From: Oryzias latipes
Lineage: Eukaryota > Chordata > Actinopteri > Beloniformes > Adrianichthyidae
Length of the DNA stretch: 64,000 nt
Reading direction: 5' to 3'
NCBI RefSeq assembly: GCF_002234675.1
Contig: NC_019876.2
Span: 27,015,750-27,079,749, forward strand
The notes under the pieces are model-generated. The model saw only the letters and a list, made by a program, of their open reading frames with translations, searched no databases and was not told the origin of the DNA. The position numbers were made by a program, and so were the translations under genes. Below, in pieces: positions 10,519-62,548 of the stretch (the stretch's first letter is position 1; every line of letters begins with the position of its first letter).

Positions 10519-11080
10519 TTTAGCTCCATGCTGTAATACTTTTGCAGACAGTTTTTCCACAGACAAAAAATACAAAAAAAAAGATCATCATTAAAGCTTT
10601 ATTTTGGCCAACTTCCTGTTGGTTTGTTTTTAACAAAACAAGATTGAGATTCAAGATTGAGATTATTTAGATCAGATTAGAGACGTTCAAACTGGGTTAA
10701 ACTGTTCTATTTTTGGTCTGCCTTCGGGACACTTTGTACCACAAAAGACTTCAAAAAGATTCATTTCAGTCATGTGTCACATTCACTCGTCGTTTTTACA
10801 GCTACAACTATATTTACCAAACTCCAAAGTCCATCTGGATGAACAAAAATACCATTATTCCTCATTAAAACAGGGTTTGAGGTGTGCAGGTCAGTACAGC
10901 TAGGAGGACATTAAGAGGGTTTATTATGGTCTGACATAAATAAGTAATCTCTCCTCTCCAGAACATGCTGTAAGTAAAACAGTTGCATTGCTGTAGAACA
11001 CCTGTTTCTTTAAGAAAAAAAAGGTTCTTCTTGTATTTTGAGATATGAAATGCTGCAGAAGACTTTTTTTCTGACAGATT
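10519..11080 (+). repeat. Inverted orphan copy of the NITR-upstream block
   Basis: This block is the reverse complement of the sequence found upstream of each of the three receptor genes (17395-17945, 25235-25775, 35425-35930). Shared landmarks are 'ctccatgctgtaatacttttgca', 'agtccatctggatgaacaaaaa', 'caggtcagtacagctaggaggacatt' and 'agtaatctctcctctccagaacatgctgt'. No Ig exon follows where one would be expected, so it is a flank without its gene, in inverted orientation. Confidence 0.8.
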
Positions 11081-14742: not shown

Positions 14743-17091
14743 TCATGATTTGTTGAGCTTACTGTGTCTTAAAGCAGCGTAATGGAGATCCTCTGTCCCC
14801 TGATAGACATGAACACACAACATATGAATGGCATCAATGTCAAAGTCAGGAAAAGTATCTACCTCTATGAATCCCAGTAAAAACAAAGATGATTATAATG
14901 TAACCTGCACATTGACACTGAACATTAATTTTTCTACCATGGACTCTGTTGCTGTGAACTGAACTCTTACCTCTGCATCCGGTCCTGAATCAACAGCAGA
15001 TCTGTCCTGAGGATTTCTTGCTGTAAATATTAACAAAAAAATGTTCAACCACCCCTTTCCCTTGGAAATAGATCTAACAATTCTTAAAATTTGAAATCAA
15101 TTCTTAAGATAAGCTAACAAAATGTGCTATTGGGTAAGAAAAATAATTTTCTGGTCACTAAGACATGTTTTCTCAAACTTGATTAGATTATTTTTCTTGC
15201 ATAAGAGAAAATAAGACCTTAATTTCTTGCAATAAGAGTCTTTAAACTCTCCTATGGTTCTCTTTTTGCAGTTTTGAGAAATTATTAAAATCATTATCAC
15301 CAATATTTTGTAGGTACTTCCAAAAGAATAACTAAAGTAAAGCTGTCTGACCGGCTGCATCGACTCGCGTTCAGAGGCCCTTTCTCATTGAAAAGTCTAA
15401 GCGAATGGGCGTAGACCAAAATTTATCTGGATCCCTATCTGAAACCCCTGTGATCACGCCTTGCTATACAAGTTTGTAGGTCCGGTTGTGGGCTCTATTC
15501 ACAATCATTGATCGCATGCTGAATGTTCAACCGATTGAATTTTTTTTTTTTTTTACTTTTTCACGCTTAATCTTGGTAACACAGACTTTGACCAATCGGG
15601 GACTCAGATCTTAAAGGAAATGAGCTGTGAAAACAAAAAAGCCTGGAGAAGAATTCATGGAATTTGCACCACCCTGACTTTTCACATAGAGATTCATCCC
15701 ACTGTAGGTAGTGGACAAGCACTAATAAACAGTAAAAAGAACAAAAGAAGAATTCACCTCCCTGCCTCAACCTGCGTGTCTGGTGTAAACACCACCTGCT
15801 GAATTTGTGCTCATGGAACCACGTTCTTGAACACAATACATGCGGCCGGTTTGAATTCATCATAAGAATGAAGATCATTTGGGGCCTCAGTTTGGTTAGA
15901 GTTCCAAAGCAGAAGACAAAATTTCCACAATATAACAAAATATTCAAGTTCTGCCAAATGCATCAGATAAAACCTTTTATGCTATAATTTATACTCATAA
16001 TGTGTAGAGAGTTAAAGCTCACCTACCCCTGCATTTGTGGTTCCTTATCTTGTGTATTGCGTACGATGTGAGGAAGATCAGCGAAGCTGCCAGAGCTCCA
16101 CTCAGGAAATACACAAATGGAGGAAAACTCCCTTGTTGCATTAAGATAAACATAAGAGAACATCATTGAAACAACAAGAAACTAACAAGAAATACAAACT
16201 GAAGTCAAATACATCATTTTATATGAGGTTCTCACCTGTGAGGTCCAGCTTGGTCCCGTTTCCAAACAGTATGTGTCCACATGAGACAACAGCACAGTAG
16301 TAGATCCCAGCATGAGACTCAGTCAGCCTCTCCATGTGCAGCTCGTAGACACAGCTGTGTGTTTGTGTGTTGTTCTTTCTCCCACACGGATCATTCCTGC
16401 CTCCATGAGTGTAAATGAGTCCTGGATGAGAGTCTCCAGAGTCTTTGAACCAGTAAACTTGCCGTTCTCCATCACAGCTCCCAGTGTGTACTGTACAGTT
16501 CAGAGTCACAGAGTGTCCAGCATGGAAGTTCTCAGAGGACGACTGATCCACTGAAGCATGAATGTCAGAAGTAGAGTCCTTCACATGGACAGTATAGCCC
16601 TCCAGATGTTTTACCCCATAAAAATCAGAACTGATGCAGTAGTAGGTGGCGGAGTCTGACATTTTCAAATTTGAGATCTTCAGGTGGTGTTTGTTTTTGT
16701 CTGTTTCCAGTTTAAGCCGTGGATCGTTCTTGAAAGCATCTATAAAATATCCATTTTTCTTGATATCTAAATACTCAGACATGAGTTGTGGTTTCATTCC
16801 TAGAGGTTGTTTATACCAATAAATATTCTCTATCCCAGTACCTTGACGAATGCATTTTAAAGTCACTTCATCACCAACATGAACAGATTGAAACTGTAAA
16901 GATGCAGACGGTTTCTGAGCCCAAGAAAGAGCTGAGGAACATGTGAACAAAAACAAAAGTATGCGTTCAATTTTTCCGCTTTTAGGATGAAATCTTAGAA
17001 GAATTTAGCAAAACCATTGAAATAGACTGAACTCACCCACTGTTCCCAGCAGCAGACATGTCAGACAGCCAGAAAACACCAGAAGAGTCAT
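14743..17091 (-). CDS. NITR-like inhibitory Ig receptor, gene 1 (five exons)
   Basis: Exons by GT-AG rule and frame: 17037-17091, 16236-16931, 16027-16131, 14971-15020, 14743-14799; 320 residues, type I membrane protein. Residues 1-19 are a signal peptide (MTLLVFSGCLTCLLLGTVA). A V-type Ig domain follows (C45, W57, C117) and a second Ig domain (C164, W179, C231) with extra cysteines C171, C201, C212 and C236 and a joining-segment-like FGNGTKLDL at 241-249. Both domains are in one exon. A transmembrane helix (about 256-276) has no charged residue. The tail has the ITIM LHYAAL at Y309, so signalling through SHP-type phosphatases is expected from the family. NITR is the best fit; databases may call such genes signal-regulatory protein beta-2-like. 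It stops 8 residues earlier than gene 2. No disabling change seen. Confidence 0.85.
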
Positions 17092-17200
17092 GTTCTAAAA
17101 CGGCTGAGGTTCACCAAGAGAAGACAGTTAGATCTGTACTTTTAACTGCCAGGCGAAGATGTGATCGGCCAATCAGAAGTGACTGAATGATTCCATGCTC
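17092..17200 (-). promoter_or_regulatory. Putative promoter-proximal region of NITR gene 1
   Basis: Directly upstream of the start codon lies a segment conserved at all three receptor genes: 'ttctaaaacggctgaggttcaccaa', 'cagttagatctgtacttttaactgcc' and an inverted CCAAT box ('gatcggccaatcagaagtgac' on the plus strand, ATTGG on the coding strand) about 80 bases upstream. No clear TATA box. Conservation may reflect recent duplication rather than selection. Confidence 0.4.
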
Positions 17201-17394
17201 ATTATTGTCTGCATTCATCAATTTACTGTAAAATATCAGAGAAAAACTAAAGAGTGAATAATTAATCCATAAAAATATAAAAAGAAATTCCACATGTACT
17301 TAAAATATTAAGAGATTTGACTATACAGGAAATATTAACCTTTTTAAAGAGGTTTTAAAGAAAATCAATGATACCAGTGGCAGAACAAGAAAGT

Positions 17395-17945
17395 CTTCTG
17401 CAGCATTTCACATCTTAAAATACTAAAATAAGTTTTTTTTAAGAAACAGGTGTTATACAGCAATTCAACAGTTTAACTTAAAGCATGTTCTGGAGAGGAG
17501 AGATTATTTATTTATGTCAGACCATAATAAAAACTCTTAATGTCCTCCTAGCTGTACTGACCTGCACACCTCAAAGCCTGTTTTAATGAGGAATAATGGC
17601 CTTTTTGTTCATCCAGATGGACTTTGGAGTTTGGTAAATATAGATGTAGCTGTAAAAACGACGAGTGACTGTGACACATGACAGAAATGAATCTTTTTGA
17701 AGTCTTCTGTGGTACAAAGTGTCCCGGAGGCAGACCCAAAAAAAGGACAGTTTAACCCAGTTTGAACGTCCCTAATCTGATCTAAATAATCTCAATCTTG
17801 AATCTAAACCTTGTTGTTTTAAAAGTTTTTTTAAGCGAGCAGGAAGTTGGCCAAAATAAATTTCAAAGATGATCTGTTTTGGTTTTGGGGTGACTTTTCT
17901 TTCTTTAAAAACTGCCTGCAAAAGTATTACAGCATGGAGCTTGTG
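17395..17945 (-). repeat. NITR-upstream duplicated block, copy at gene 1
   Basis: About 550 bases with near-identical counterparts at 25235-25775 and 35425-35930 and an inverted one at 10519-11080. It moves with the receptor genes and so belongs to the duplication unit. No coding content is apparent. Confidence 0.8.
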
Positions 17946-17996
17946 ATTTTCAGTCTATGCAAAAAAGAGGTCAATTACTACCAGAGTAACTCATTA

Positions 17997-18690
17997 CTAC
18001 GGTGCCTTAATAAAGTATTGGGTCCCCTTGAACTTTTGAAAATTTTACCACATTTCAGGCTGCTAACATAAAGATATAAAACTGTAATGTTTTGTGAAGA
18101 ATCAACAACAAGTGGGACACAATCATGAAGTGGAAGAAAATTTATTAGATATTTCAAAAAAAATTTAACAAATGAAAAATAGAAATATTAGGCATGCAAA
18201 ATTATTCATCCCCCTTAAGTTATTACTTTGTAGTGCCACCTTTTGCAGTGATCACAGCTGTAAGTCCCTTGGGGTTTGTCTCCATCAGTTTTGCACATCG
18301 AGAGACTGAAATTTGGTGCATTTGCGAACAGCAGTTTTCAGTTCTTTCCACAGTTTCTCCATTGGATTCAGTTCTAGACTTTGACTTTCCCATTCCAACA
18401 CCTGGATATATTTATTTGTGAAACACTCCATTGTAGATTCTGCTTTATGTTTTGGATCATTGTCTTGTTGGAAGACAAGTCTCCATCCCAGTCTTCAGGT
18501 CTTTTGCAGACTCCATCAGGTTTTCTTCCAGAATGGTCCTGTATTTGGCTCCATCCATTTTCCCATCAATTCTAACCATCCTACCTGTCCCTGCTAAAGA
18601 AAAGCAGGCCCAAACCATGATGCTGCCACCACCATGTTTGACCATGGGGATGGTGTGTTCAGGGTGGTAAGCTGTGTTGCTTTTAGTAAA
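17997..18690 (-). mobile_element. Tc1/mariner-type transposon, truncated
   Basis: The left end TACGGTGCCTTAATAAAGTA resembles the terminal repeat of common fish Tc1-like elements. Minus-strand coding from about 18660 gives MVKHGGGSIMVWACFSLAGT, then KMDGAKYRTILEENL and, after a frame change, DNDPKHKAESTMECF and WESQSLELNPMEKLWKELK, the C-terminal half of a Tc1 transposase (SxDLNPIE-like motif). The N-terminal half and right end are missing. The right break near 18690 is abrupt. Confidence 0.8.
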
Positions 18691-20330
18691 TCAAAGGTAA
18701 TTCACTGATCTTTGCCTGAACTATCCTGCATTTGAGTCATCATGGTTAACTGTAATGGTCATCTCTGTTGTCCATGATATTACAAGGGCATTCCTCCCTA
18801 TCTTCATCTGGGGGTGGATGTGAGATCTGTGGTCAGAGCTGACCTGTGGTTTGTCACGTTAGGTATGTGGGGTTTCAAAAAATTCACAAAAAAATAAGGA
18901 ACTCCTTTCAGAAATAGTGATGCTCTTTTAATATATTTGTCTGGGTGCAAAGTAACATCAACACGTCGTTTTATCAATCTATGATGCTGAAAAGGCTGTT
19001 GTAGAATTTGTAGCTTCATATCTACAATGCAATAGGGATGGACCGCAGACAGACCAGTGTAATTTAGGGTTAGTCACAACTACACCTACGGGTGGATATG
19101 GGCTGTCCGTAGAGAACAAATGGGCCCAGGTGAAATTTTAAGACTGTGGACCACCTGGTGAACTTGTAAGGCCAAAATGTTCATCCACATTCTTTTGTAC
19201 ATGCATGCTGTGGGAGACAAGTAGCAGTGAACGCTAAAGCAACACGCAAGGGTAAGTCAGGGTGAAGTAGTACAGATTTTAGTTTTATTCAACCTCCCCA
19301 AACCCTGCGCACTGCACAAGAAGCCTGTTAGCGCCATTTAAGTGAAAAAGGTGAGTGCTCCCAGTGTGCAGCCTCACCATTAGAAATGAGGAAATTAGAC
19401 AATAAGAGTTCAGTTTGTGTGGACATCCAGGCTTCCTACAGGCACTTAAGTATGTGGGAGCGATTGGACCGCTGGGATCAGCAGATCTGCAGTGCGATCT
19501 ACACGTAGTGGCAGGGTAAATGGCATTTTCACTTCAGGTTGATTCTTCATCTGTCAACTGAACCCCTGACGTTTGATTGCAACTCTTTGTTTCTAACTGT
19601 CATTTCTTTTTGTGAGCAACGCAACGCTGTTCAAGCAAAGCAACGCTGCAGATTGGTTGAGGTAAACCAGAAGGCTGGTGGCAGTCTGCATTTTTGAGTG
19701 CCTTTGGTGCTGCTGCTTGCTTTTCAACGCAGGAGTCCCAGCGCGTCGGAGGAAGGCCAACCGGAAGGAGTGTGTGACGCTGGATACACGCAGAGGCGGA
19801 GGGGGACTCTGCCTGCCGTGTAAGTAAATACAAGTGTGGCCACATTCCATCAGGATAGCCCAGGGCAGCCGTGGTCGCTTCTGGTACTGGCAGATGCTTT
19901 TTCCTGTTGGTCCTAGTCTGTGTGACCGGAGGTATCCCTGACCATTAACTGGAGGAGCCGGCTCGGGGGACAAAGTCTGGCTTGGCAAGGTCGCTCCTTG
20001 GTTCTAGATTTGTGACTCTTTTAATGGAAGCTGCTTTTAATCTTGTGTTTTAAAACATTTCCCAGGACTTTTAGAATTTTATATGTCTTTTAGGAGCTTT
20101 TAATCCCGCATCTCGAGACTGTTGGTATGTTTCATTTTCTATTTTTGTAAATAAGGTGTTTGTATTGGCCAAGGGTCTGGTCCTCTTTGGTAGCATCACG
20201 TGTGCTCTCAGTCCGTTCTCCTAGCTCAGAGTAATAATCAAATATTTCCTTTCCTCACCCTCCCCATTCGTAACTGATCTACACCCATCGTAAGTAAGGC
20301 AGTGTATTCATTGCTGCAGAATCAGTCAAC
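18691..20330. other. Spacer, no gene recognised
   Basis: A 131-residue minus-strand frame at 19593-19988 has low-complexity content and no domain I recognise. The region is GC-richer than its surroundings between 19640 and 19990. I see no terminal repeats that would define an element. Confidence 0.35.
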
Positions 20331-20334
20331 TCTG

Positions 20335-20456
20335 AACTGTGTATGTGTATTTGTTGAATGTTTGATCTTGTTCAGGTTGTACTGGAAATAATTTCGTATG
20401 TCAGTGCAAAAGCTGTGCACATGACAATAAATGACTTCTGGTTCTGATTCTGATAA
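20335..20456 (+). repeat. LINE 3' tail, Rex1-type
   Basis: Ends with 'gacaataaatgacttctggttctgattctgat', the kind of tail with TTCTGAT repeats that also ends the Rex1-type LINE near 46990-47005. Only the tail remains. Confidence 0.5.
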
Positions 20457-20639
20457 CCAAACCAACAGTCCTTACATAAGGTTAAGGACTCGATCCAGAT
20501 CAAATTGAGCAGACTTGGTCTGGACCAGCAGACTTTTCCTTTCAGAATGCACCACAAGCTCAATGGAACATGCACTACATGTTGAATCCATTGTAATGCA
20601 TGTAAGGATAATTCTTGACCCAACTACCTCTGTGCTTTT

Positions 20640-21070
20640 TAGTGTTAAGGGAATAATCAAATTCTGACTTTGTTACCATTTTGCTATTGTACCACTATGA
20701 TATCCTCTGATCTTTTTATTTTTCAAACCTGGAGAAGTCAAGGAAGAACTGAGTTCACTACAGTTATGATGTTTTCCAAGAACCAGACCTTCTCCAGCCA
20801 CAAAAACCTCCTTGAAGATTTTATCAACACCTCTATGGATCAGGCTTCACATCGGTTGGTTCCAGTTTTGCAGTCCGTCAGAGCTACAACCAACCTGTGC
20901 TTTTTTGGTTTTGGGATTTAACATTATTGGAATAAAGAAATACTCATAACTAAAAACTCATAACCGGTTTTGATCGTAGATTCATTTATTTATGTCCTGC
21001 AGCATGAAAAAAAAATGTTACAAAAACATGTCATGATTCATGATTCGGCCATGGATTTGACTCTGTGGAT
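20640..21070. repeat. Degenerate dispersed repeat
   Basis: 20855-20990 shares 'gcagtccgtcag' with 10010-10030 and 'acctgtgcttttttggttttgggatttaac' with 11765-11800. The remainder is unassigned. Confidence 0.35.
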
Positions 21071-21082
21071 GGACTCGTGACC

Positions 21083-21240
21083 TTCTAGTCTAAAGGTGCA
21101 TTCACACCAGACGTGATTCGTACATCAGGGCGTTGAGTTTCAATGTAAATATCAGTCCGGCAGCGGCCTCATTTGAGCGTTAAGGCGTGCCTTTTGCGGC
21201 AGACGCAGCAATCAGGTACTCAGCTTTGGGCATGTGACGT
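21083..21240 (+). repeat. Left arm of the 'ctaaaggtgcattcacac' MITE family
   Basis: 'ctagtctaaaggtgcattcacaccagacg', 'catcaggg' and 'gttgagtttcaatgtaaat' match 11995-12100 closely. No right arm follows; the copy is truncated close to the 3' side of receptor gene 2. Confidence 0.65.
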
Positions 21241-21401
21241 TTTCAGTGACTCCATCATCTTTGTTGAATGGATCTTTAAGTTTTTTTAAATATAAATTTA
21301 TTTATTTAGTTCTGCATAGCACTGTAATTTGGAGTAAATCTTACTGTGAATCACATGTAAACACAAACAAATCCAGCTCTAGGGCTTTGGAGTTCATAGA
21401 A

Positions 21402-24400
21402 TTATTGGCGGCATCTTCCTTCTCTTCTTGATTTGTAGACCTTACTGTGTCTTAAAGCAGCATAATGGAGATCCTCTGTTCCCTGATAGACATAAACACA
21501 CAACATATGAATGGCATCAATGTCAAAGTCAGGAAAAGTATTTACCTCTATGAATCCCAGTAAAAACAAAGATGATTATAATGTAACCTGCACATTGACA
21601 CCGAACATTCATTTTTCTACCATGGACTCTGTTGCTGTGAACTGAACTCTTACCTCTGCATCCGGTCCTGAATCAACAGCAGATCTGTCCTGAGGATTTC
21701 TTGCTGTAAATATTAACAAAACATTTTTTTTGAATCTCAAATGTTGAAGATGCACTGCAAAAACACCCCTACCCCGGAAATAGATCTAAAATTCTTAATA
21801 TTCAAAATCATTTTTTTAATCGATTTTTTTAAATCAATAAAATTAAGAATTTGAAATCAATTCTTTACATAAGCAAACAAAATGTGCCAATGGGGTGAGA
21901 AAAATAATTTCTAGTCACTAAGACATGTTTTAAGATTATTTTGCAATCAGAAAACTTTCTTGATAAGATTATTTTTCTTGCAAAACAGAAAATAAGACCT
22001 TCATTCCTTGAAATAAGAGTCTTTATCCTTTCCCACGGTTCTGTTTTTGCAGTGTAGAGAATTCTTTAAATTAGAATCACCAATTATTTGTTGGTGCCCG
22101 TTCTCATTGAAAAGTCTAAGCCAGGGGTGTCAAACTCATTTTCACCGAAAGCCACATCAGCATAGCGGCTGTCCTCAAAGGGCCAGATATAACTTATACA
22201 TGTAACTAAATGTAATGAAAAGTAAATGTAACTACTCCTTAATGTTAATTAACTCATTTTTTATTTATTATAACTTTTTAAAGTGACAATTCCAGTTGCA
22301 TAGAAAACATATGTTTGCTTGTTACTCTAGCATAAATCCTTTTACATTTGATTCTGTCAGGTTAGGTTATATGGACAGTGTTTAAGTCCTAATGTATAGT
22401 AGCCCAATCTGATATTTCAAGTCTGATTCCCCCTAGATATGAATAAATACACACCAATTTTTATTTTAAGAAATTAAAAACTTTGATGCTTTCGCGGGCC
22501 ACATTAAATGACATTGAGGGCCACATTTGGCCCCAGGGCCTTGAGTTTGACACATGTGGTCTAAGCAAACGGGCGTAGACCAGAATTCATATGTGTCCGT
22601 ATGTGGAATGCTTGTGATCGTGCCTCGCAATGCAAGTTAGGTCAGGTCGTGGGCTCTATTCACAATCATTGATTACACGCTGAAAGTTCAACCAATTTAA
22701 TATATTTTATTTTACTTTTTCACGCTTTATCTTGGCAACAAAGACTTTGACCAATCGGGGACTCAGATCTTTAAGGGAGAGAAATATGAAAATAAAAGCC
22801 CTGGTGAAAAATGTGTGGAATTTGCACCGCTTTGACTTTTCACATAGAGATTCATCCCTCTGTAGGTACACTCCAAAAAGAAAAAAGTTGATCCAACTTA
22901 ATTCTTCAATATGAAACACCTAATTGAATTAACCTTATTCAACTTTATCTTTTATGGCTATCCAACTCAATTTGATGAATTGATATGACTAAAACAAATC
23001 TTTTTGAAATTTTGTTTATACAATTATAATTGACACATTTTCTTTAAGGTTCAACCCATGGGCCTTGAAATTGCCATATCAAAGACATTAATGACACAGC
23101 AATGTTTCGCATTACAAGGCAGGGGCTCACATGTTGTGAACTCTGTCTTTAAAACTGAAACATGTAATTTTCATCGCACAAGGGGGTTTGTCATCATCCT
23201 CTACATAACTCTAATTCATGGTGCAGAAAAAAATAAAAATAAAAGTTTAAATTACTAGTTAAAACAGAGTAAAAAAGCTAGACAACAAAACACACGGACA
23301 AAAACTCACACTTAAACCCCAATCTGCCGAGATAGGCAAAAAAATGGGATCCCGTAAATCCTTGCGCTGCCTTACGTTATGACGTCATGACTCACACCAA
23401 AGTTACACCAACTTAATTGAATTAAGTTGATTGAAAGTAAAATAACTATGTCAGACCACGTGTTATTTTAAGGTTGAATAAACTAAAAAAATGATTTATT
23501 TTCAGCAAACTAAATAATTAAGTTAGAACGATGTAAAAAAGTTCATCTTTTCAACTACAGCACAAATACTCTTTTTAGAGTGTATAGTGGACAAGCACTA
23601 AGAAACATTCAAAAAACAAAAGCCCCCTTCCGGTCTCAACCTGCGTGTCTGGTGTGAACCAAGTTCATTCACACCTTACAAGTAGCAGGTGTGAATACAG
23701 CATAAGAATAAAGATCATTTGGGGCCTCAGTTTGGTTAGAGTTCCAAAGCAGAAGACAACATTTCCACAATATAACAAAATGTTCCAGTTCTGCTAAATG
23801 CATCAGATAAATTCCTTTTATGCTATAATTTATACTCATGATGTGTAGAGAATTAAAGCTCACCTACCCCTGCATTTGTGGGTCCTTATCTTATGTATTG
23901 CGTACGATGTGAGGAAGATCAGCGAAGCTGCCAGAGCTCCACTCAGGAAATACACAAATGGACGAAAACTCCCTTCTTGTGTTGAGACAAACATAAGAGA
24001 ACATTATTGAATCAACATGAAACTTACAACAAATACAAACTAAGGTCAAATACATAATTTTATTTGAGGTTCTCACCTGTGAGGTCCAGCTTGGTCCCGT
24101 TTCCAAACAGTATGTGTCCACATGAGACAACAGCACAGTAGTAGATCCCAGCATGAGACTCAGTCAGCCTCTCCATGTGCAGCTCGTAGACACAGCTGTG
24201 TGTTTGTGTGTTGTTCTTTCTCCCACACTGATCATTCCTGCCTCCATGAGTGGAAATGAGTCCTGGATGAGAGTCTCCAGAGTCTTTGAACCAGTAAACT
24301 CTGTGTTCTCCATCACAGCTCCCAGTGTGTACTGTACAGTTCAGAGTCACAGAGTGTCCAGCATGGAAGTTCTCAGAGGACGACTGATCCACTGAAGCAT

Positions 24401-24932
24401 GAATGTCAGAAGTAGAGTCCTTCACATGGACAGTGTAGCCCTCCAGATGTTTTACCCCATAATAATCAGAACTGATGCAGTAGTAGGTGGCTGAGTCTGA
24501 CATTTTCAAATTCGAGATCTTCAAGTGGAGTTGGTCTTTGTCTGTTTCAAGTTTAAGCCGTGGATCGTTCTTGAAAGCATCTACAAAAGATCCATTTTTC
24601 CTAAAATCTAAATACTCAGACATGAGTTGTGGTTTCAGTCCTATAGGTTGTTTATACCAATAAATTATATCTGTCCCAGTGCCTTGACGATTGCATTTTA
24701 AAGTCACTTCCTCACCAACAAGAACGGATTGAAACTGTAAAGATGCAGACGGTTTCTGAGCCCAAGAAAGAGCTGAGGAACATGTGAACAAAAACAAAAG
24801 TATGTGTTCAATTTTTCAGCTTTTAGAATAAAATCTGAGAAGAATTTAGCAAAACCATTGAAATAGACTGAACTCACCCACTGTTCCCAGGAGCAGACAT
24901 GTCACACAGCCAGAAAACACCAGAAGAGTCAT
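21402..24932 (-). CDS. NITR-like inhibitory Ig receptor, gene 2 (five exons)
   Basis: Exons 24878-24932, 24077-24772, 23868-23972, 21654-21703, 21402-21482; 328 residues. Architecture equals gene 1: signal peptide, V-type and second Ig domain in a single 696-base exon with FGNGTKLDL, an uncharged transmembrane exon, and ITIM LHYAAL at Y309. Against gene 1, changes cluster in the V domain: residues 46-55 read NRQGTGTDII here and IRQGTGIENI there, and the GYFID segment is GSFVD here. The second Ig domain is almost unchanged. The tail runs 8 residues further (RREGRCRQ) because gene 1 has a stop where this gene has AGA. The intron between the last two-tail exons and the membrane exon carries two transposons missing from gene 1. 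Confidence 0.85.
22122..22558. mobile_element. hAT MITE in an intron of NITR gene 2
   Basis: Starts CAGGGGTGTCAAACTCATTT and ends GAGTTTGACACATGTG (inverted repeat), with 'gggccacat' blocks near the right end. A perfect 8-bp target-site duplication GTCTAAGC flanks it (22114-22121 and 22559-22566), the hAT standard. The matching site in gene 1 (near 15397) has a single GTCTAAGC and no insert, an empty site. Confidence 0.9.
22867..23584. mobile_element. TA-target DNA transposon (MITE) in an intron of NITR gene 2
   Basis: Ends are TACACTCCAAAAAG and CTTTTTAGAGTGTA, inverted copies, with AAGTTGATCCAACTTAA-like repeats inside both ends. It interrupts 'ctgtaggtagtggacaagcac', which is uninterrupted in gene 1 at about 15701-15721. 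A TA target points to a Tc1/mariner-type element. No transposase is encoded in its 0.7 kb. Confidence 0.8.
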
Positions 24933-25234
24933 GTTCTAAAACGGCTGAGGTTCACCAACAGAAGACAGTTAGATCTGTACTTTTAACTGCCAGGCGAAGA
25001 TGTGATCGGCCAATCAGAAGTGACTGAAGGATTCCATGCTCAATATCGTCAGCAGTCATTAATTTACTGTAAAATATCAGAGAGAAACTAAAGAGTGAGT
25101 AATAAATACATGAAAATATAAAAGAAAATCCCACATGTACATAAAATATTAAGAGATTTGACTATAAAGGAAATCTTAACCTTTTTAAAGAGGTTTTAAA
25201 GAAAAACAATGATACCAGTGGCAGAAAAAAAGTG

Positions 25235-25790
25235 TTCTGTAGCACTTCACATCTTGAATACCAGAATAACTTTTTATTAAATAAACAGGTTTTCTACAGC
25301 AATGCAACAGGTTAACTAACAGCATGTTCTGGAGAGGAGAGATTATTTATTTATGTCAGACCATAATAAACCCTCTTAATGTCCTCCTAGCTGTACTGAC
25401 CTGCACACCTCAAACCCTGTTTTAATGAGGAATAATGGCCTTTTTGTTCATCCAGATGGACTTTGGGGTATGGAAAATATACTTTTAGATGTAAGAACGA
25501 CGAATGACTGTGACACATGACAGAAATGAATCTTTTTGAAGTCTTTTGTGGTACAAAGTGTCCCAGAGGCAGACCAAGAATAGAACAGTTTAACCCAGTT
25601 TGAACGTCTCTAATCTGATCTAAATAATCTCAATCTTGAATCTGAAATCTTGTTTTGTTAAAAACAAACCAACAGGAAATTGGCCAAAATAAACTTCAAA
25701 GAAGATCTTTATTGGTTTTGGGGTCTTTTTTCTGTTGAAAAACTGCCTGCAAAAGTATTACAGCATGGAGCTTAAGATGGAACAAACCTT
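25235..25790 (-). repeat. NITR-upstream duplicated block, copy at gene 2
   Basis: Same block as at 17395-17945, in the same position and orientation relative to its receptor gene. Ends near 'aaactgcctgcaaaagtattacagcatggagctt'. Confidence 0.8.
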
Positions 25791-26935
25791 TTTATTTGGC
25801 TTGGAATTTAATGTTAACAGGTTAAAATATTTTGTTGACTTCAATGGGTTAAATTACGCAACAATTAATTTGATCACAAAAATATTAGTCACTGGCTGCA
25901 TTTCAGTCATACATATGCAGAAAAATCACAAACTAACTTAGTGGTTAAGTTGTATAAAAACATGGCGACGGATGTGAACAAAACTTTCATTTACAGCAGA
26001 GACATTTAAATATCTGCCATGGCACAAATGGTTGTTGGATAATTTCCAGAGGAGGTGAGGATCACAAAATTCGACATGACATGTTCAACTTTTGATGAGC
26101 TGTGTGATGCTGTGGGACCTGTAGTGGCGCCCCAATGTGCAGCACCTAAGGCAGACAGTTCCTACCTAGAAGCGCATCGCCATTCGGTTGTTGGTCACAT
26201 GACTCATTTCATTCAAAAAAAGTCTTTCCATTGCAGTTTTGCCAAATTTGTCCATTGCAATACCTCAAAAAAACACCTGTTTTTGATAAATGTGAGTTTT
26301 TTAAACTGTCATGTTTCCATTACGGGAATTTATTATCGCAAATCCAATTTGCTTAATTTCATAGTCAATGCAAACACAACTACTGACAGCAATTCAGGGC
26401 ACGCATGCCAGTGGGACACAAATTCACCACTAGTGTAGAAAAAGACACATTTCCATTTCCTGTGGACAACAACTGTGCAACAAGCAAACACGCCAAAAGA
26501 GTCACCACTCTGAAGCTGAAAGTACTGCAGGATTTGAAGCAAGTGGCTACTGGTAATGCAACGTACAATCTACCCAGAAAGTAAAATTTAACATTTACAG
26601 TTCACAAATCTCCGGAGCATCACTTTACAGAGGCACGTGCATCGGTTGTGCAGGACAAGGAACATTGAGGAAAACGTTACATGTTAGTACTGACAGTACT
26701 CGTAACACGATGGTAGCTGTCAAACTACTTCCAATACATGCCCTGCACAGCCAACACCATACAGAGGCTCTTTATGCGATAGTGGCTTTGAGACTTTTAG
26801 CCAAATGTCGAAAAGTAGTTGGCCACTTCAAGCACAGCCAGTCATGTAAATTGTTGCTAAACCAGCAACATCACACTGTATGAATAAGCTTTAACCAGCT
26901 GTGGGTGGAGCTACTTGCTTGAGAGTCTGAGAGTG
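25791..26935. other. Spacer, possible transposon relic
   Basis: A minus-strand stretch at 26333-26542 contains LQILQYFQLQSGDSFGVF, faintly like the 'LATGDSF' block of Harbinger transposases. No other motif supports it. The rest is unassigned. Confidence 0.25.
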
Positions 26936-27307
26936 CTACGTTCACACCAGGCATGTAACATTCAGCATTTAGCCCATGATGTTCTCATGGGACTGCACTG
27001 GATTATTAATTTCTTCTCTATGATCATGTTTACAACCAGTTGGCACTTTTTTATAAAGGATGCTTCCCACTTCCAAATCTGAGTCCCTGATTGGTCAGAG
27101 TTTGACCTGGCTTAACTTCCAACATGCATTCATGTATGCAGGTTTAGTACATACATTTCACAAAACGGTCTTAAAATTGTGCATAGCTACAACTGAACGT
27201 AAGAGTTTTGAACATGGAATCCTGGAGTGGGCTTTTACTCATGTTCGCAGAGGCTTTTCATGTAGCTGTGGCTTAGATGCGTGTTGGCGAGGGCGGTGTG
27301 AACGTAG
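26936..27307. mobile_element. MITE with CTACGTTCACACC ends
   Basis: CTACGTTCACACCAGGC at 26936 is matched by GGCGGTGTGAACGTAG ending 27307, a 13-bp perfect inverted repeat. The terminal motif is close to that of the 5339-6428 element, so a PIF/Harbinger relation is possible. No coding content. Confidence 0.55.
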
Positions 27308-27476
27308 TCTCAGAGGAAGAGAAGGCGGCAGCAGTCTGGGCTTCATTGAGGTCTATCACAGGAACATCCTGAGGCTCCAGTGATCTGAGGGTTTTCATGA
27401 CGTCTGAGACTTTTGTCCAAGCAAACATCTTCATGCAGAAACCATTGATAGCCATGGCCAACACTTTTTCTATAAA
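27308..27476 (-). pseudogene. Orphan exon-like open stretch, function unknown
   Basis: After a possible splice acceptor ('gatttacaggctttgtag'), about 56 codons are open: FIEKVLAMAINGFCMKMFAW, TKVSDVMKTLRSLEPQDVPV, IDLNEAQTAAAFSSSE. The composition looks like a real protein, but I do not recognise the family. The open stretch ends exactly where the MITE at 26936-27307 begins, so it may be an exon cut by that insertion. No partner exon was found. Confidence 0.3.
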
Positions 27477-27479
27477 CTA

Positions 27480-28090
27480 CAAAGCCTGTAAATCAGAAGA
27501 TATATGTAAGAAGATATTGATAGTTAAAGACCTGATGATATGAGGTTATTTGGGATTTATTTTTAATTTAGCCAATTTAATTAATTTAATATTGATGAGA
27601 AGAATACCGATTCTGTAATGTTTGGTAGAAAATTTAAAATGTTTCATCATTTATTTTAAGCATCAGTTGAGCACACAATAAGGACACAAACAGGTTACAG
27701 TGACTGGAAAACAAATTCAAACCAAGAATCTGGTGGTCTGCAGAGGCTTTGGGGGGGGGGGGGGGTGAGACTTTACAAGAATAGACAGCACAGTGTGGTT
27801 AGAGTCTAACTGAGGACTGGCTCCACATTGCATCAGATTCTGATATGCTTGTTTTAGTATCAGCTACTGTCCACTGTCTCAACTGTAACAAACACTGCTA
27901 CAGCTCTAGAGTTCTATTTAATCACTGTTCTCTTTTGAAATTGCAATTGCAGCTTGATTGTCGGAGCTGACACCCTCCTTTTTCCACTGTGGTGACACCA
28001 ATGCAGCAGACATGCAGTAACCTTTCAGTCTTTGCAGCAGCATCACATCTGTGGTCCTACTTTCCAACCAAAGCCCTTTTCTTAGCTTTT
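27480..28090. other. AT-rich spacer with a poly-G run
   Basis: A run of about 17 G near 27751-27767 is the only notable structure. No gene seen. Confidence 0.5.
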
Positions 28091-28094
28091 CTTT

Positions 28095-30190
28095 CTTTTT
28101 AAAATTAATTTAAAGTTTGGAGTTTTATAGTACAAGACAGTACAATAAACAAAATCTGACTTTGCATAGAATTTCCTAATACACAATCATTAAATTTTTT
28201 TTTTTTTTTTTTACAAAATATAAGAACATTGAACCATTGGGAGTGACCAGTGTTTATCCATTTATTTGTATTTTTGTAATAATATGTGACATTTTGTAAA
28301 TTAGCATATTGGATTGGATTGAAAATCTTTTGCAGTGTTTTATGAACATCAGTCCCACATGATGTGAACATGATTTGCTCTTTGGTTTCCAGATTTTCTT
28401 CAACATAACGGAGGGTTTCCATCATAATGAGTCTTTTGAAGTGGTGTGATAAAGAATCCGATCAAACTTTCTATCCATATTCTCTCCATCTTTGTGACGC
28501 CATATTTTTACATTGTTTTTTCCATATTGATGTCCATTCACCCGGTGTTATGTTCACCCTCTTTCTCCCCTAATGACTTCACATATTCAGTTGAGTGAGG
28601 AATCTTGCTTGTCAATAATACAGAGCAGAAATATGTTTTCTAATAACATCAACTTTATATGCCTTTGTAATTATGTCAATCAGATCTCCTTTAGTTCCAA
28701 CCTTTTCTCCAATCTTTGTGTCTATATAATGCCTTATTTGCAGGTGTCTATAGAAATCCTGCTTTTTGAAACTTTATTTTTCTTTCAACGTTTCAAAACT
28801 AGTTACTTTGCCATCCTTAATCAAGCTTCCAAATATTGGTAACCCTTTGGTGGACCAATATTTAAAATGTGAATCCAATTTTTTTGGAGCAAAATTAGAG
28901 TCGTATGCATACCATTTGAATATTGAGAGGTCGTTTTTCTAGTTTTAATTCTTTAACCAAGTTTTTCCATATAGAGAGTGTACACTTAACCCACGGATTA
29001 CAAATATTGTCAATATGTTTTTGGATATTTGAGTCCACCAGGACTGCTTGTATGGGAATAGCGAGTAAATTCTCCTCCACGTCTTTCCATTTTGGAAATC
29101 AGCGTCTTCATTTGAGCTGCCCAAAAATAATCCTTTAGAAAAGGCAGGCCCCACCCTCCTTTATTTTTATGTAATTGAAGGGTTTGATAGAATATTCAAT
29201 TTGATGGATTCAATTGTTGAATATGAAGAAAGAAAAGGGATCAAGTTCCAACGTTTAACATCCTCCACTATCTTCTTATGTAATGAGATGTAATCTTCCT
29301 CATATAATTTAGTCAGGTTTTTAGGTATGTTTACACCTAAATATTTTATGGATTTTGTCTGCCATCTCATTGGGTATTGCACGGCCAAAACTGCTGGTGG
29401 GTTGTAGTTGTAAGCAAATATTTGAGTTTCATCCATATTAATTTTATACCCAGATAGGTTTACAAATCTTTTGCACAAATTCATCAGTACAGGTAAAGTT
29501 TTTGTAGGTTGTTCTAAATATATTAAGATATCTTCTGCGTAACATGAAAGTTTGTGTTCCCTTCCTTGAATATTTATTCCTTTAATATCTTTGTTTTGTC
29601 TAATTGATTGTGGCAGCGGATCTAAATATAAGGCAAATAAAAGTGGAGACCAGGCACAACCTTGTTTATTTCCTCTCTGGATTGTAAAGCTGTTTGAGAG
29701 GTAACCATTAACTTTAACTCTTGCCGTGGGATTGGCATACAGAGCCTTCACTGTCTTAATAACTGTGTTATGAAACCTAAATTTAGTCAGTACTTTATAC
29801 AGAAAGTCCCAATCTACTGAGTCAAATGCTTTTTCTGCGTCTATACTCGTGAGCATGGCTTTATTTTTAGATGTTTGTATCTGCTCTATTATATGCAGGG
29901 TTCTGCGTATATTATCTTGTGTCTGCATGTTTCTTATGAATCCAGTCTGTTCATTACTTATCATACTGGGTAAGAATTCCTTCATTTCGCCTGGCCATAA
30001 TTGAGCTAAAAAGTCTGTAGTCTATATTAAGGACAGATATCGGTCGATAAGAGCCACACTCGGATTTATCTTTACCTTTTTTTGGAATGGTGGAAATAAT
30101 GGCTTCATTCCAACTTCCAAAAGTATTTCCAAACTTCTCAAGGAACCCACAAAGAAGAGAAAAATTTTACCCTTTACCCTTCAAAATAAA
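28095..30190 (-). mobile_element. L1/Tx1-type LINE, 5'-truncated, dead
   Basis: Minus-strand reverse transcriptase: around 30150-29990 in broken frames ISTIPKKGKDK and YRPISVLNIDY; then a 272-residue frame (29167-29985) with NEQTGFIRNMQTQDNIRR, SIDAEKAFDSVDW, GNKQGCAWSPLLFALYLDPL and CYAEDILIYL. The remaining 3' third (28100-29160) is recognisable but full of stops, including ENLLAIPIQAVLVDSN and NPWVKCTLSIWKNL. The catalytic pair reads AED rather than ADD. A 'tttctttcttttt' run at 28089-28101 may be the poly-A tail on the other strand. Confidence 0.85.
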
Positions 30191-30371
30191 AGAGGCACAT
30201 TAGCAGATCTGTCACCTAATTTGCTTAGTGTAACAACGTAACAACACTTTTCTTCAAATGATCCACTCGTAAGAGGCTCAATGAAAACAGGTAGTGAGTA
30301 TGCTGTTATAGAAGCTCTAAAGCAGCGGTATTCACACTTTTTTGACATGTGAACTACTTTTAAAACAACAT
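30191..30371. other. Short spacer
   Basis: Junction between the L1-type LINE and a transposon end; 'gcagcggtattcacacttttttgacatgtgaactac' near 30322 looks like a hAT-type terminal fragment. Confidence 0.3.
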
Positions 30372-30433
30372 TAGCCGCGGTTACATGCGCAAAATATCTT
30401 GATCTGATCATCAGTCGGATTAAAGGGTCCTGC
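30372..30433. repeat. Single end of the 'ttagccccggttacatg' transposon family
   Basis: 'ttagccgcggttacatgcgcaaaatatcttgatctgatca' is the same terminal segment as the right end of the element at 45125-45915. Only one end is present, so this is a truncated copy. Confidence 0.6.
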
Positions 30434-30439
30434 GCAGTA

Positions 30440-32140
30440 TCTTAGCTGTTCCTAGCACTGCGCTTTTCTAGACTGAGAGGTCTGAGGTCTTTCCAGGTAT
30501 CTGTTGTAGCCACTCCTCCAGCTTGGAGGTTACTGCCCAAGTGCTCCAGTTACCACAGGCACCACTGTCACCTTCACTTTCAAGGCTTTCTCCAGTTCTT
30601 CTCTGAGTCCCTGGTATTTCTCCAGTTTCTCATGTCCCTTCTTCCTGAGTTTCCCATCTCTTGGCACTGCCAGATCCACCACAACGGCTTTCCTGTTCTT
30701 TGTCCACCACTACAATGTCTGGTTGGCTTGCCATTACCATTCTGTCGGTCTGGATCTGGAAGTCCCACAGGATCTTTGCCCTCTCATTCTCTACCACCTT
30801 CGGAGGTGTTTCCCATTTTGACCTTGGGGTTTCCAGTTCATATTCTGCACACATGTTCCTGTATATTATTCCAGCCACTTGATTGTGGCGCTCCATGTAT
30901 GCTTTACCTGCCAGCATCTTACACCCTGCAGTTATGTGCTGGATTGTTTGCACAGCCTACACCTTGGGTCTTGTCTGGTGTGGTAGCCATTGTTAGGACT
31001 TTTTGATATCAGCCACTTCAGTTATGGTCCGGTGGTACATCCCATGCAGCGGTTTGTCCTCCCATGAGGATCTGTCCTCCACCACTTCATCCTCTGCTCT
31101 CCATTGCCTGAGACATTCACTGAGCACACTGTCAGTTGGGGCCTTGAGCTTGATGTACTCATGCATCTTGGATGTTTCATCCTGGATAGTGGCTTCCACT
31201 CTCACTAGTTCTCGGCCTTCTTCCTTGCGGCTAGCATACAGTCTCAGGGTGCTGGATTTGGGATGGAACCTTCCATGCATGGTGAAGAGCTGTTGTGTTT
31301 TAACATCCGTGGTCTGCATCTCTTCCTTTGGCCATCTTATTATTCCTGCAGGGTATCTGATGACTGGCAGTGCGTAGCTGTTTATTGCCCGGGTCTTATT
31401 TTTGCCATTGAGCTGGCTTCTCAGGACTTGCTTTACTTGTTGAAGATATTCAGCTGTTACAGTTTTCCTTGTTGCCTGCTCCAGGTTGCCATTTGCCTGT
31501 AGAATTGCAACGTACTTGTAACTGTCCTCAATGTCTACTATTGTTAATTCTGGGAGTGAGACCCCTCCTGTGTGGACTACCTTGCCTCTCTTTGTCGCCA
31601 TCCGAATGCATTTCTCGAGCCCAAGTTACAACCCAATGCCAGTACTTTAGATCCTGGTGGTGTGGATGAGGGAGTCAATGTCACGCTCGCTCTTAGCATA
31701 TAGCTTGATATTATCCATGTAAAGGAGGTGATTGATGTTGACCCCATTTCTGAGTCGGTATCCATAGCCAGTCTTGTTGATTATTTGGCTGAGGGGGTTC
31801 AGACCTATGCAGAATAGCAGTGGGGACAGAGCATCACCTTGGTATGTCCCACATTTGATGGACACTTGTTGAGTGTGGTGAGCTTCTTTAGCCAGTAGGC
31901 ATGTATCATGTCAGGGCCCGGTGCTGTCCAGTTCTTCATACGTGAAACTTTTTCTTGGATGCCACTGTGATGGTTACTGGATTCTGTTCAGGTCCGTTTG
32001 TTTGGTCTTGCTGTCACAGGTGTGACTGCTGCAGGTATTTTGGGAACATTGGGAAATCTTTTGTAAGTTTCATGTTGTGCTTCATTGGGTTGGATGTTAA
32101 ATCCACTTTGTGGAAACTGACCCTCCAGCATCTGGGTCCT
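30440..32140 (-). mobile_element. R4-type LINE with restriction-like endonuclease, dead and internally deleted
   Basis: Minus strand, 5' to 3': MKNWTAPGPDMIHAYWLKKL (about 31910), then CGTYQGDALSPLLFC and YMDNIKLYAKSERDIDSL (reverse transcriptase), then a 202-residue frame 30993-31601 with NSYALPVIRYPAGIIRW and KPLHGMYHRTITEVADI, then TIQHITAGCKMLAG (zinc knuckle region), WDFQIQTDRMVMASQPDIVV and VDK, a restriction-like endonuclease PD...D core. C-terminal endonuclease placement indicates the R2/R4 group (R4/Rex6-like in fish). The catalytic YMDD reads YMDN, and the region before CGTYQGD is deleted. Confidence 0.8.
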
Positions 32141-32149
32141 TAATATTTA

Positions 32150-33760
32150 GCAGCTCACTCATCTCACTTGTTTGGAGGCAAACACATTTACCTGTGAAAA
32201 AATGGACCCCATGGCATTCTCTTGTTAGTTATATTGATCTGACATTTGACCTGAACTCAACGTATTACTGTAAAAGAACTTCTTAGTCTGTGACAGTTTG
32301 ATTTATTTTGGTGTGTTTAGAGTTTATCTCACGTATATTCAGCATAAAACCACATCAGAGTAAAATGGATTTGACACAAGTACATTTAAGCACTAACAGA
32401 TACTGAATAAGAGAAATAGAATCAGTTTATCTGTAAATGCTTTCATTTTCAATCATATCTAATTTGCTTTATGTACTCAAGTTATTGTACTTTTACTGTC
32501 AGGCAGTCTGCTTTTTACTAATAATTTTGTGTGCATGAGCGTTAATGATTATGCTGTCACAATAAGTATTTGAAGTATCTATCTATCTATCTATTTTAAT
32601 TTTAATTTACTCATTTTTTTAGTCTACAACTAACTTAATAAAACACTGAAATGTAAAGTCTATTAAACTAATGTATTGACGTAAATATAGGCTTTAAAAT
32701 CATGAGCTGTGGTCGGATGCTGACCAGCTTCTGTTCCAAATTCACTTTTGGACACTGCACAATGTTGGTTTTAACATTTTATTAATTTCTTTTTCGCATC
32801 ATATTTTTTGTTAACCCCTCAATGCTTTTTGATGTAAATAACCATCAAAATTGCCTTAATTTAGCATTGACAGGTGAAATATTTTGGCTCAGTTTTCTTC
32901 TTTTTGTTCTAAATGTGAGAGACTGCCAAATTGGTCAACCAGATAAAAGCCCTAGTGAGCAGTACGAAGTTTCAACCATCTTTATTTATAAACTTTGAGC
33001 TTGTCTCAAATTGCTGCACAAAAAGCAAAAAATGTTTGACAAAAAATGTTTTGAATGTAGAAATCCATTTCAGTCCAGATCTTACCAAAAAGACTAGATT
33101 ATCCTGATCATAAAATAACAGAACATAAATGAAATTAATACATGACAGAGTTTTCCATCAAATCACTCTATAGTCAGAAAAAGGTAATAGTGGAGAAGAA
33201 AATTCCTCCTAGATGGACGGTTAGAAATAAACCCAGCAGAATCAGAGGACGACCATCTAAAGACAAGACATGAAAGAGTCACAGACGTGAAACACTGGAA
33301 AATCCGGTAAACATGCAGGTTAGTAACTGTTGGAAATGATAGAACAGAAAGTGAACTCCTAAAGCTGTTTATTTTGCTAAAAAAACCAAAAATAAAGCCT
33401 TTATTTAAAGAAAAACACAAAATAATACAATTTACAGCATGAGGGTGTTTTAAGTCAAACATGTTGTTCAGTTAAAACTTTTTTATGGTTATTCCATGTT
33501 TAAATTTTCATTAAAAAACATATAATCCCTTCCTGCTGCTTTCTGCCTCATATTGTTGATTTCTGACCTCATCTGGAGTTAAGGAGCCCAGATTATATAT
33601 AAAAATGAAAAGGAAAATACAAAACATAAGAACATGTTTCAAACTATCAAACAAAATTACATTCTCTCAAAATATTAAATGTCTCCGTTTAAGTAAAACC
33701 CAAAGAAAAGTCTTTTACTTTTCATTCTGTTTACAAAATAAAGAAACTTCCTTGACCTAA
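32150..33760. other. Spacer between LINE and NITR gene 3
   Basis: AT-rich, no gene recognised. A (CTAT)n microsatellite lies at 32574-32596. Confidence 0.5.
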
Positions 33761-33764
33761 AGGT

Positions 33765-35132
33765 TCAGTTCTGTTGTCTCACAATCACATAAACACAGAC
33801 TGTGTTTAAGTCGTTTTCCTGTCTTCTTGTTTTTTTTGACTTTTTCACATTTAAAGCAGCGTAATGGAGGTTTTCTGCATCTTCGCTCTCAGCCTGAAAC
33901 CAAATTGACAGAAAAGGATCAGAGTGTGAATCTTGTGGGAATAACAGATCAGAACTGAAGAGAGTTGAGACTCACCTCTGTGCTTCTTAAGGGGGCAGCT
34001 GATCTTTCCTCTGGTTATTAAAGACAGAAAGGTTGGATTTCAAGAACACATTTGTTGAACAGTGAAATAACTTTGTGTACCTGTGGAGGTGCAGGCGTTG
34101 CTCTTCTTAATCTTCCACAGCAGAAAGGCGACGAGGACGCTCATGATGGTCAATAATCCAACAAAAGTGTTCAGAATCACAGAGTTCAGAGGAGCTGCAG
34201 AGTCTGGCACCAGATCAAAATGGATTTAACTTGATTCTTTCACCAACAAACTGGATTCTACTGAGGTAAAACTCACCTGTGAGGTCCAGCTTGGTCCCGT
34301 TTCCAAACAGTATGTGTCCACATGAGACAACAGCACAGTAGTAGATCCCAGCATGAGACTCAGTCAGCCTCTCCATGTGCAGCTCATAGACACAGCTGTG
34401 TGTTTGTGTGTTGTTCTTTCTCCCACACTGATCATTCCTGCCTCCATGAGTGGAAATGAGTCCTGGATGAGAGTCTGCAGAGTCTTTGAACCAGTAAACT
34501 CGCTGTTCTCCATCACAGCTCCCAGTGTGTACTGTACAGTTCAGAGTCACAGAGTCTCCAGCATGGATGTTCTCAGAGGACGACTGATCCACTGAAGCAT
34601 GAATGTCAGAAGTAGAGTCCTTCACATGGACAGTATAGCCCCCCAGATGTTTTACCCCATAAAAATCAGAACTGATGCAGTAGTAGGTGGCGGAGTCTGA
34701 CATTTTCAAATTTGAGATCTTTATGTGGTGTTTGTCTTTGTCTGTTTCCAGTTTGAGTCGTGGATCGTTCTTGAAAGCATCTATAAAATATCCATTTTTC
34801 CTAAAATCTAAATACTCAGACATGAGTTGTGGTTTGAGTCCTAGAGGTTGTTTATACCAATAAATTATATCTGCCCCAGTGCCTTGATGATTACATTTTA
34901 AAGTCACTTCCTCACCAACAAGAACAGATTGAAACTGTAAAGATGCAGACGGTTTCTGAGCCCAAGAAAGAGCTGAGGAACATGTGAACAAAAACAAAAG
35001 TATGTGTTCAATTTTTCAGCTTTTAGAATAAAATCTGAGAAGAATTTAACAAAACCATTGAAATAGACTGAACTCACCCACTGTTCCCAAGAGCAGACAT
35101 GTCACACAGCCAGAAAACACCAGAAGAGTCAT
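33765..35132 (-). CDS. NITR-like inhibitory Ig receptor, gene 3 (five exons, different membrane/tail exons)
   Basis: Exons 35078-35132, 34277-34972, 34081-34203, 33976-34010, 33765-33893; 345 residues. The leader, first intron and Ig exon are near-identical to genes 1 and 2 (C45, C117, C164, C231, FGNGTKLDL). From the exon 2 splice donor onward the sequence is unrelated: the transmembrane exon reads NSVILNTFVGLLTIMSVLVA and FLLW, followed by basic KIKKS, and the introns are short (about 70 bases). The last exon still encodes an ITIM, NLHYAAL at Y314, then a longer basic tail ending RQQN. Intact by inspection. Most likely inhibitory, as for genes 1 and 2. Confidence 0.85.
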
Positions 35133-36946: not shown

Positions 36947-37946
36947 NNNNNNNNNNNNNNNNNNNNNNNNNNNNNNNNNNNNNNNNNNNNNNNNNNNNNN
37001 NNNNNNNNNNNNNNNNNNNNNNNNNNNNNNNNNNNNNNNNNNNNNNNNNNNNNNNNNNNNNNNNNNNNNNNNNNNNNNNNNNNNNNNNNNNNNNNNNNNN
37101 NNNNNNNNNNNNNNNNNNNNNNNNNNNNNNNNNNNNNNNNNNNNNNNNNNNNNNNNNNNNNNNNNNNNNNNNNNNNNNNNNNNNNNNNNNNNNNNNNNNN
37201 NNNNNNNNNNNNNNNNNNNNNNNNNNNNNNNNNNNNNNNNNNNNNNNNNNNNNNNNNNNNNNNNNNNNNNNNNNNNNNNNNNNNNNNNNNNNNNNNNNNN
37301 NNNNNNNNNNNNNNNNNNNNNNNNNNNNNNNNNNNNNNNNNNNNNNNNNNNNNNNNNNNNNNNNNNNNNNNNNNNNNNNNNNNNNNNNNNNNNNNNNNNN
37401 NNNNNNNNNNNNNNNNNNNNNNNNNNNNNNNNNNNNNNNNNNNNNNNNNNNNNNNNNNNNNNNNNNNNNNNNNNNNNNNNNNNNNNNNNNNNNNNNNNNN
37501 NNNNNNNNNNNNNNNNNNNNNNNNNNNNNNNNNNNNNNNNNNNNNNNNNNNNNNNNNNNNNNNNNNNNNNNNNNNNNNNNNNNNNNNNNNNNNNNNNNNN
37601 NNNNNNNNNNNNNNNNNNNNNNNNNNNNNNNNNNNNNNNNNNNNNNNNNNNNNNNNNNNNNNNNNNNNNNNNNNNNNNNNNNNNNNNNNNNNNNNNNNNN
37701 NNNNNNNNNNNNNNNNNNNNNNNNNNNNNNNNNNNNNNNNNNNNNNNNNNNNNNNNNNNNNNNNNNNNNNNNNNNNNNNNNNNNNNNNNNNNNNNNNNNN
37801 NNNNNNNNNNNNNNNNNNNNNNNNNNNNNNNNNNNNNNNNNNNNNNNNNNNNNNNNNNNNNNNNNNNNNNNNNNNNNNNNNNNNNNNNNNNNNNNNNNNN
37901 NNNNNNNNNNNNNNNNNNNNNNNNNNNNNNNNNNNNNNNNNNNNNN
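36947..37946. other. Assembly gap, exactly 1000 N
   Basis: A run of exactly 1000 Ns, a typical fixed-size placeholder, so real distance and content are unknown. Open frames drawn through it are artefacts. Confidence 1.
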
Positions 37947-54213: not shown

Positions 54214-54404
54214 TTCTCCTCTCAGACACACAGACTGTGAGAGTTTCACTTCCTCAGAAACCAGTTTGACTGTGATCCTCCAATCAGATGGTTTCACTGT
54301 GAGTTCAGCCAATCAGCTTCTTTCTTCTCTTCCTGTTGGTGACGCCCATCATGACAGAGGAGGAGCTGCAGAGGAGTCCTGATCTGTTAACCCTTTCAGA
54401 GAGA

Positions 54405-61242: not shown

Positions 61243-61245
61243 TTA

Positions 61246-62445: not shown

Positions 62446-62548
62446 CCTGGATTTAGCCCTGTTTTTTCCACTGTCGCTCACCGATCTCACAGCCGCAGTT
62501 TGAGCTCTGTAAACACGGAAGCTTGCCTGAGACCCCCTTACACATGGC

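Follow-up and report, generated by a model that had tools for sequence, protein, structure and literature searches.

The three receptor genes

The window, the whole 64,000-nucleotide stretch of Oryzias latipes DNA analyzed here, was placed by a search of the species' own genome at C18:27015750-27079749. It contains three receptor genes, all on the minus strand and together spanning exactly 14743-35132, with five exons each and a single exon of 696 bases carrying both immunoglobulin domains, as an earlier reading made from the letters of the sequence only had described. Gene 1 (17091-14743) has exons at 17037-17091, 16236-16931, 16027-16131, 14971-15020 and 14743-14799, and encodes 320 residues with one ITIM in a tail that stops early. 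Gene 2 (24932-21402; exons 24878-24932, 24077-24772, 23868-23972, 21654-21703 and 21402-21482) encodes 328 residues, likewise with one ITIM. Gene 3 (35132-33765; exons 35078-35132, 34277-34972, 34081-34203, 33976-34010 and 33765-33893) encodes 345 residues and carries, besides the ITIM LHYAAL, the ITIM-like sequence CVYVIV. The exons encode, in order, a leader (55 bases), the V and I domains, a membrane segment, and the cytoplasmic parts C1 and C2. All twelve introns start with GT and end with AG, exons 1 to 3 end in phase 1, and the reading frames join.

The V domains match the Pfam V-set model with E-values of 1.5e-25, 9e-24 and 2.6e-24 for the three ectodomains, matches too strong to be due to chance. 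All three proteins have six cysteines in the I domain (residues 164, 171, 201, 212, 231 and 236), followed by FGNGTKLDL at its end, and all three have LHYAAL in the tail and a most hydrophobic 21-residue window free of charge; on each of these points the sequence-only reading was accurate. The full J motif is absent from the end of the V domain and occurs at the end of the I domain only.

Family membership and genomic place

The description of NITR genes by Desai et al. 2008 (PMC2442602) gives the six-cysteine I domain as a NITR feature, a J motif of the form FGXGTXLX(V/L) at the end of V, of I, or of both, and an exon plan of leader, V+I, membrane, C1 and C2; inhibitory members have an ITIM, (S/I/V/L)xYxx(I/V/L), and a membrane helix without charge. 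Every published feature that was checked is present in the three window genes, and, the agreement extends over the six-cysteine I domain, the J motif, the ITIM, the uncharged helix, the structure of the genes and their genomic place. The sequence thus supports their assignment to the NITRs and to the inhibitory class, as had been proposed. The one-exon arrangement of V and I, which the sequence-only reading gave correctly, is not new, as it was published for pufferfish (Spheroides and Tetraodon) and for chromosomes 18 and 21 of medaka (PMC2442602). The medaka single-exon NITRs described there resemble the trio in lying on chromosome 18, in the V+I exon and in the six-cysteine I domain, as well as in the J motif, the ITIM-bearing tail and the separate leader, membrane, C1 and C2 exons, and the trio very probably belongs to that published gene set. 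Mammalian KIR, as compared with NITRs in the same source, are also type I immunoglobulin receptors with inhibitory and activating forms and a gene content that varies between species, although the two are separate families and the likeness is functional only.

Among the Pfam matches to the trio ectodomains there was no SIRP-specific model. Sequence searches of the PDB were set aside as evidence of membership, since antibodies make up most of the best 60 matches, alongside a few T-cell receptors and no NITR chain. An AlphaFold model built from three sequences had a mean pLDDT of 65, and the 50 Foldseek matches listed for it were almost all antibody fragments, with TM scores of 0.35-0.48; the predicted structure indicates two V-type immunoglobulin folds and nothing further.

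The own-genome search covered 734,051,031 bases in 25 contigs, with 150 of 284 candidates scored and 80 matches listed. Among those 80, strong NITR-like matches fell on C18, which held the closest, and then on C10; published medaka NITR clusters lie on chromosomes 18 and 10 (PMC2442602). Near 27 Mb no matches other than the trio (27.03-27.05 Mb) were listed, and about 2.7 Mb separates it from the main C18 cluster at 23.92-24.35 Mb. The 80 matches, listed after 150 of 284 candidates had been scored, include none on C21, the contig of the published NITR24 site (PMC2442602). The trio was considered as a possible candidate for NITR24; a genome search for olfactory receptors, a cluster of which is present on C21, placed none of 95 matches on C18. 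On C17, at 11.67-12.36 Mb, weak matches of 27-33 bits cover only the V part and form a cluster that probably represents another V-domain family, and a single weak V-only match was listed on C22.

Elsewhere in the window, an inverted orphan copy of the stretch upstream of the trio genes lies at 10510-11076 on the plus strand, with 88-90% identity. Genome-wide, four copies of this stretch were listed, this one and one upstream of each of genes 1 to 3; a transposon was rejected as its explanation on that count, and the orphan is perhaps, by its sequence, what remains of a fourth unit. Two single-exon TRIM genes on the minus strand (40149-41912 and 52552-54312), about 96% identical in DNA and each with RING, B-box, coiled coil and PRY/SPRY, form a tandem duplicate beside the trio. 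A nearly whole non-LTR retrotransposon occupies 57499-62565 (minus strand); it has two open reading frames with one stop between them, encoding an endonuclease and a reverse transcriptase with RNase H, and its leading frame has no Pfam match but contains cysteine repeats that by eye resemble zinc knuckles. A viral-contig scan found nothing, and neither Rfam at gathering thresholds nor ARAGORN reported anything within the 64-kb window.

Divergence of V and I among the three genes

Exons 1 and 2 of the three genes differ at 27 residues, of which V accounts for 19, I for 7 and the leader for 1, and residues 46-55 or 75-101 hold 12 of the 19 changes in V, in agreement with the claim that substitutions fall mostly in the V domain and in those segments. 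Silent changes follow the same division. A three-way count gave 12.25 silent changes at 70.6 sites in V vs 2 at 77.2 sites in I (Fisher p 0.004), and pairwise dS was 0.10-0.15 in V vs 0.013-0.026 in I, or roughly 0.11 vs 0.02 overall. Since silent changes drop in I too, its near fixity reflects alike DNA and not protein constraint alone. The ratio of replacement to silent changes in V was not raised over that in I (Fisher p 0.46). V has dN/dS of 0.27-0.60, with dN below dS (p 0.02); I has 0.59-2.09, a range that comes from one or two silent changes per pair. Within residues 46-55 and 75-101, pN was 0.152 and pS 0.245, a difference that is not significant (p 0.36). The I domain is not the sole quiet stretch in the trio, since the region of the start codon also diverges little and intron 1 is less variable than V.

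Gene 3 and the tail types

The leader, V and I regions of the three genes are close copies, but intron 2, the membrane helix and the tail of gene 3 are not, and the sequence-only reading missed its different tail. Gene 3 shares 92-93% identity with genes 1 and 2 from 35927 to 34272 (minus strand), a stretch that ends 5 bases into intron 2. Beyond 34272, blastn at E 1e-3 found 19 bases in common with gene 1 and none with gene 2. The block at 34271-33765 (minus strand), with intron 2, membrane segment and tail, is instead about 85% identical to a type of block found in the main cluster (type B, below) over some 390 aligned bases. Identity profiles, from which the breakpoints were taken, gave 91-100% between genes 3 and 2 through exon 2 and 40-51% thereafter; against the main-cluster locus L019, gene 3 had 47-62% before the I domain, 94-98% inside it and 77-90% after it. 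On these profiles gene 3 is a mosaic, with the head of genes 1 and 2 and the intron 2, membrane helix and tail of another type. Its last exon is distantly like theirs (50% protein identity over 24 residues, E 0.026).

Blocks 3' of exon 2 with unrelated introns and helices define tail types. Type A comprises genes 1 and 2, L009, L023 and L026; type B comprises gene 3, L013, L014, L016, L018-L022, L024 and L028; type C comprises L010-L012 and L025; the assignments of L023, L025 and L026 are based on intron 2 and the helix alone, and L015, L017 and L027 fall outside all three types. A pattern search for the last ITIM exon located it in 17 of 23 genes, trio included, and did not find it in L015, L017, L023, L025, L026 and L027. 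Among type-B genes of the main cluster, the 450 bases 3' of exon 2 are about 90-96% identical while the V domains differ, and their tails have LHYAAV and, in most, C-V/L-YASV, to which the tail of gene 3 is similar. The tails of genes 1 and 2 are short and lack a second tyrosine motif; because their type-A relative L009 runs on to AVYSSI, the shortening is probably a loss, as judged from this comparison, which is better evidence than a possible trace of the motif noted by eye 3' of the stop of gene 2. Within the trio, blocks of type A and of type B alike differ by about 15-18% from their best main-cluster partners in the aligned parts, which suggests that both tail types were already present in this satellite at its separation, with the copying of the head a later event, a dating drawn from divergence. 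Types B and C have unrelated introns and helices, yet nearly the same last exon (LHYAAV...), which hints that exchange may also take place at another point, downstream of the first.

A tree of V from 20 genes (17 intact main-cluster genes plus the trio, with the three broken genes L026-L028 left out) has two clades, with support of 100/100 and 100/99, and each clade includes genes of all three tail types. The V data reject a single clade of the ten intact type-B genes, with a log-likelihood difference of 411. Tail type changes 7 times on the tree, where the minimum possible is 4 and shuffled labels average 9.3, reaching 7 in 5 of 200 shuffles. Since 7 changes is below the shuffled mean, tails still follow V in part, and re-pairing of heads with tails would not be free.

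The I domain across the chromosome-18 family

Twenty main-cluster loci (L009-L028) were fetched, and the 17 that are intact give 136 pairs, in which mean dS is 1.13 in V vs 0.054 in I. The shift from one level to the other spans about 15 codons, up to SSSENIHAGD, and lies within one exon. With the trio added, silent divergence is lower in I than in V in all 190 pairs; where V pS exceeds 0.4, as it does in 150 pairs, I pS has a median of 0.055 and a maximum of 0.131. In none of the 190 pairs does pN exceed pS in V. The likeness of I is uneven, as its 5' half differs by about 1.1%, whether or not the genes have a V clade or tail type in common, vs 4.6-6.9% between pairs in its 3' half. At the broken locus L027, stops interrupt the V half, yet over 293 ungapped bases the I half keeps 97.6% identity to the majority sequence of the family. 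The corresponding, homogenised halves of exon 2 in the window, all on the minus strand, are 16237-16575 (gene 1), 24078-24416 (gene 2) and 34278-34616 (gene 3).

The NITR genes on contig 10 served as a control. They belong to the same family as the trio, and most of their I domains end in a FGNGTKL-like motif, but in 15 of 18 the two domains occupy different reading frames; the other three, L044, L045 and L046, have both in one frame. Nineteen loci were fetched, and 18 with both V and I were scored, for 153 pairs. V pS exceeds 0.3 in 131 of these, and in those pairs I pS has a median of 0.58 and a minimum of 0.0; unlike in the chromosome-18 family, silent divergence of I mostly tracks that of V. 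Homogenisation of I is, as far as these sequences go, characteristic of the single-exon family on chromosome 18. The contrast, though strong, is not complete, because some contig-10 pairs have identical I domains.

Discussion

The gene models, the NITR features, the likeness of I at silent sites and the mosaic of V heads with tail types are observations, and we interpret them as follows. These are NITR genes in which exchange of DNA within the I half of exon 2 homogenises that half across the chromosome-18 family and joins V heads to differing tails, a reading to which, from the sequence comparisons, we give a probability of about four in five. Each of the three proteins would sit on the lymphocyte surface, where its V domain would bind a ligand and its phosphorylated ITIM would recruit phosphatases that damp activation; by analogy with established NITR biology, all three receptors should be inhibitory. 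Repeated exchange, by gene conversion or unequal crossing-over, would keep the I domains alike and would also place V heads in front of different membrane and tail blocks. Gene 3 would be one such product, combining the V head of the satellite with a type-B tail that has two motifs; the shortened type-A tail of genes 1 and 2 has one. It is probable, at a lower level of confidence than the reading as a whole, that the I half of exon 2 acts as a germline recombination hinge, with exchange ongoing and one head given several signaling outputs in a combinatorial manner.

The sequence-only reading attributed the same contrast to ligand-driven positive selection diversifying V, with protein constraint holding I fixed. 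Replacement changes among the three genes are indeed more frequent in V (about 21 at 271 sites vs 8 at 262 in I, p 0.02) and are concentrated in the named segments, and the title of a sea bass NITR paper reportedly claims positive selection. But the silent changes fall away in I along with the replacements, V shows no excess of replacement over silent changes relative to I, V dN lies below dS among the three genes, no pair of the wider set has V pN above pS, and even the named segments have pN short of pS, albeit not significantly. Nor is constraint apparent in the I dN/dS of the trio, few as the silent changes behind it are, and constraint on a protein could hold neither silent sites nor the I half of the dead gene L027. 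We therefore do not find support for ligand-driven change and consider it unlikely. Long runs nearly devoid of silent changes might also be expected if the I half were frozen at the nucleotide level by another function, for example because it contains splicing signals or overlaps an RNA, with no exchange at all. This is very unlikely, as the I domains of contig 10 have only about 32-48% protein identity to that of gene 3 (among matches listed) and are silently divergent among themselves, L027 keeps its I half although broken, the introns that follow the I half in different genes are unrelated, and no Rfam family reached threshold in the window to suggest an overlapping RNA.

Recent mass duplication of one 3' half-gene, capturing old V halves with little conversion afterward, overlaps with our interpretation and is possible, if doubtful. 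It would account well for main-cluster type-B genes that stay so similar beyond exon 2 despite their differing V domains; it does not account for the likeness of I halves between genes of tail types A, B and C, with their unrelated introns and helices, so that exchange inside the I half would still be required. The 5' half of I, moreover, seems not to track tail type, which also speaks against it. That the assembly polished or collapsed repeats onto each other is the sort of artefact that near-repeat genes invite, and a 1-kb gap at 36947-37946 lies about 1.8 kb upstream of gene 3. However, this gap contains all 1000 N of the window and the genes none, and the pattern recurs at many loci with differing flanks while being mostly missing from the contig-10 cluster; an artefact is highly improbable. 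Exchange within the I half thus stays our preferred interpretation.

Concerted evolution was judged less likely to be primary for NITRs by Desai et al. 2008 (PMC2442602), in whose main text a word search found none of recombin-, shuffl-, conversion or synonymous. We found no earlier report of conversion or shuffling in NITRs among open-licence papers, the range of the search. The genes belong to a known family, and the pattern bears on an open point of NITR diversification, as silent sites within one exon show two modes together, V diverging and I homogenised. Trees or selection tests built on whole NITR exons mix these two histories. If it is true that heads and tails are re-paired at such a hinge, this would explain how a receptor may keep its target while changing its signal.
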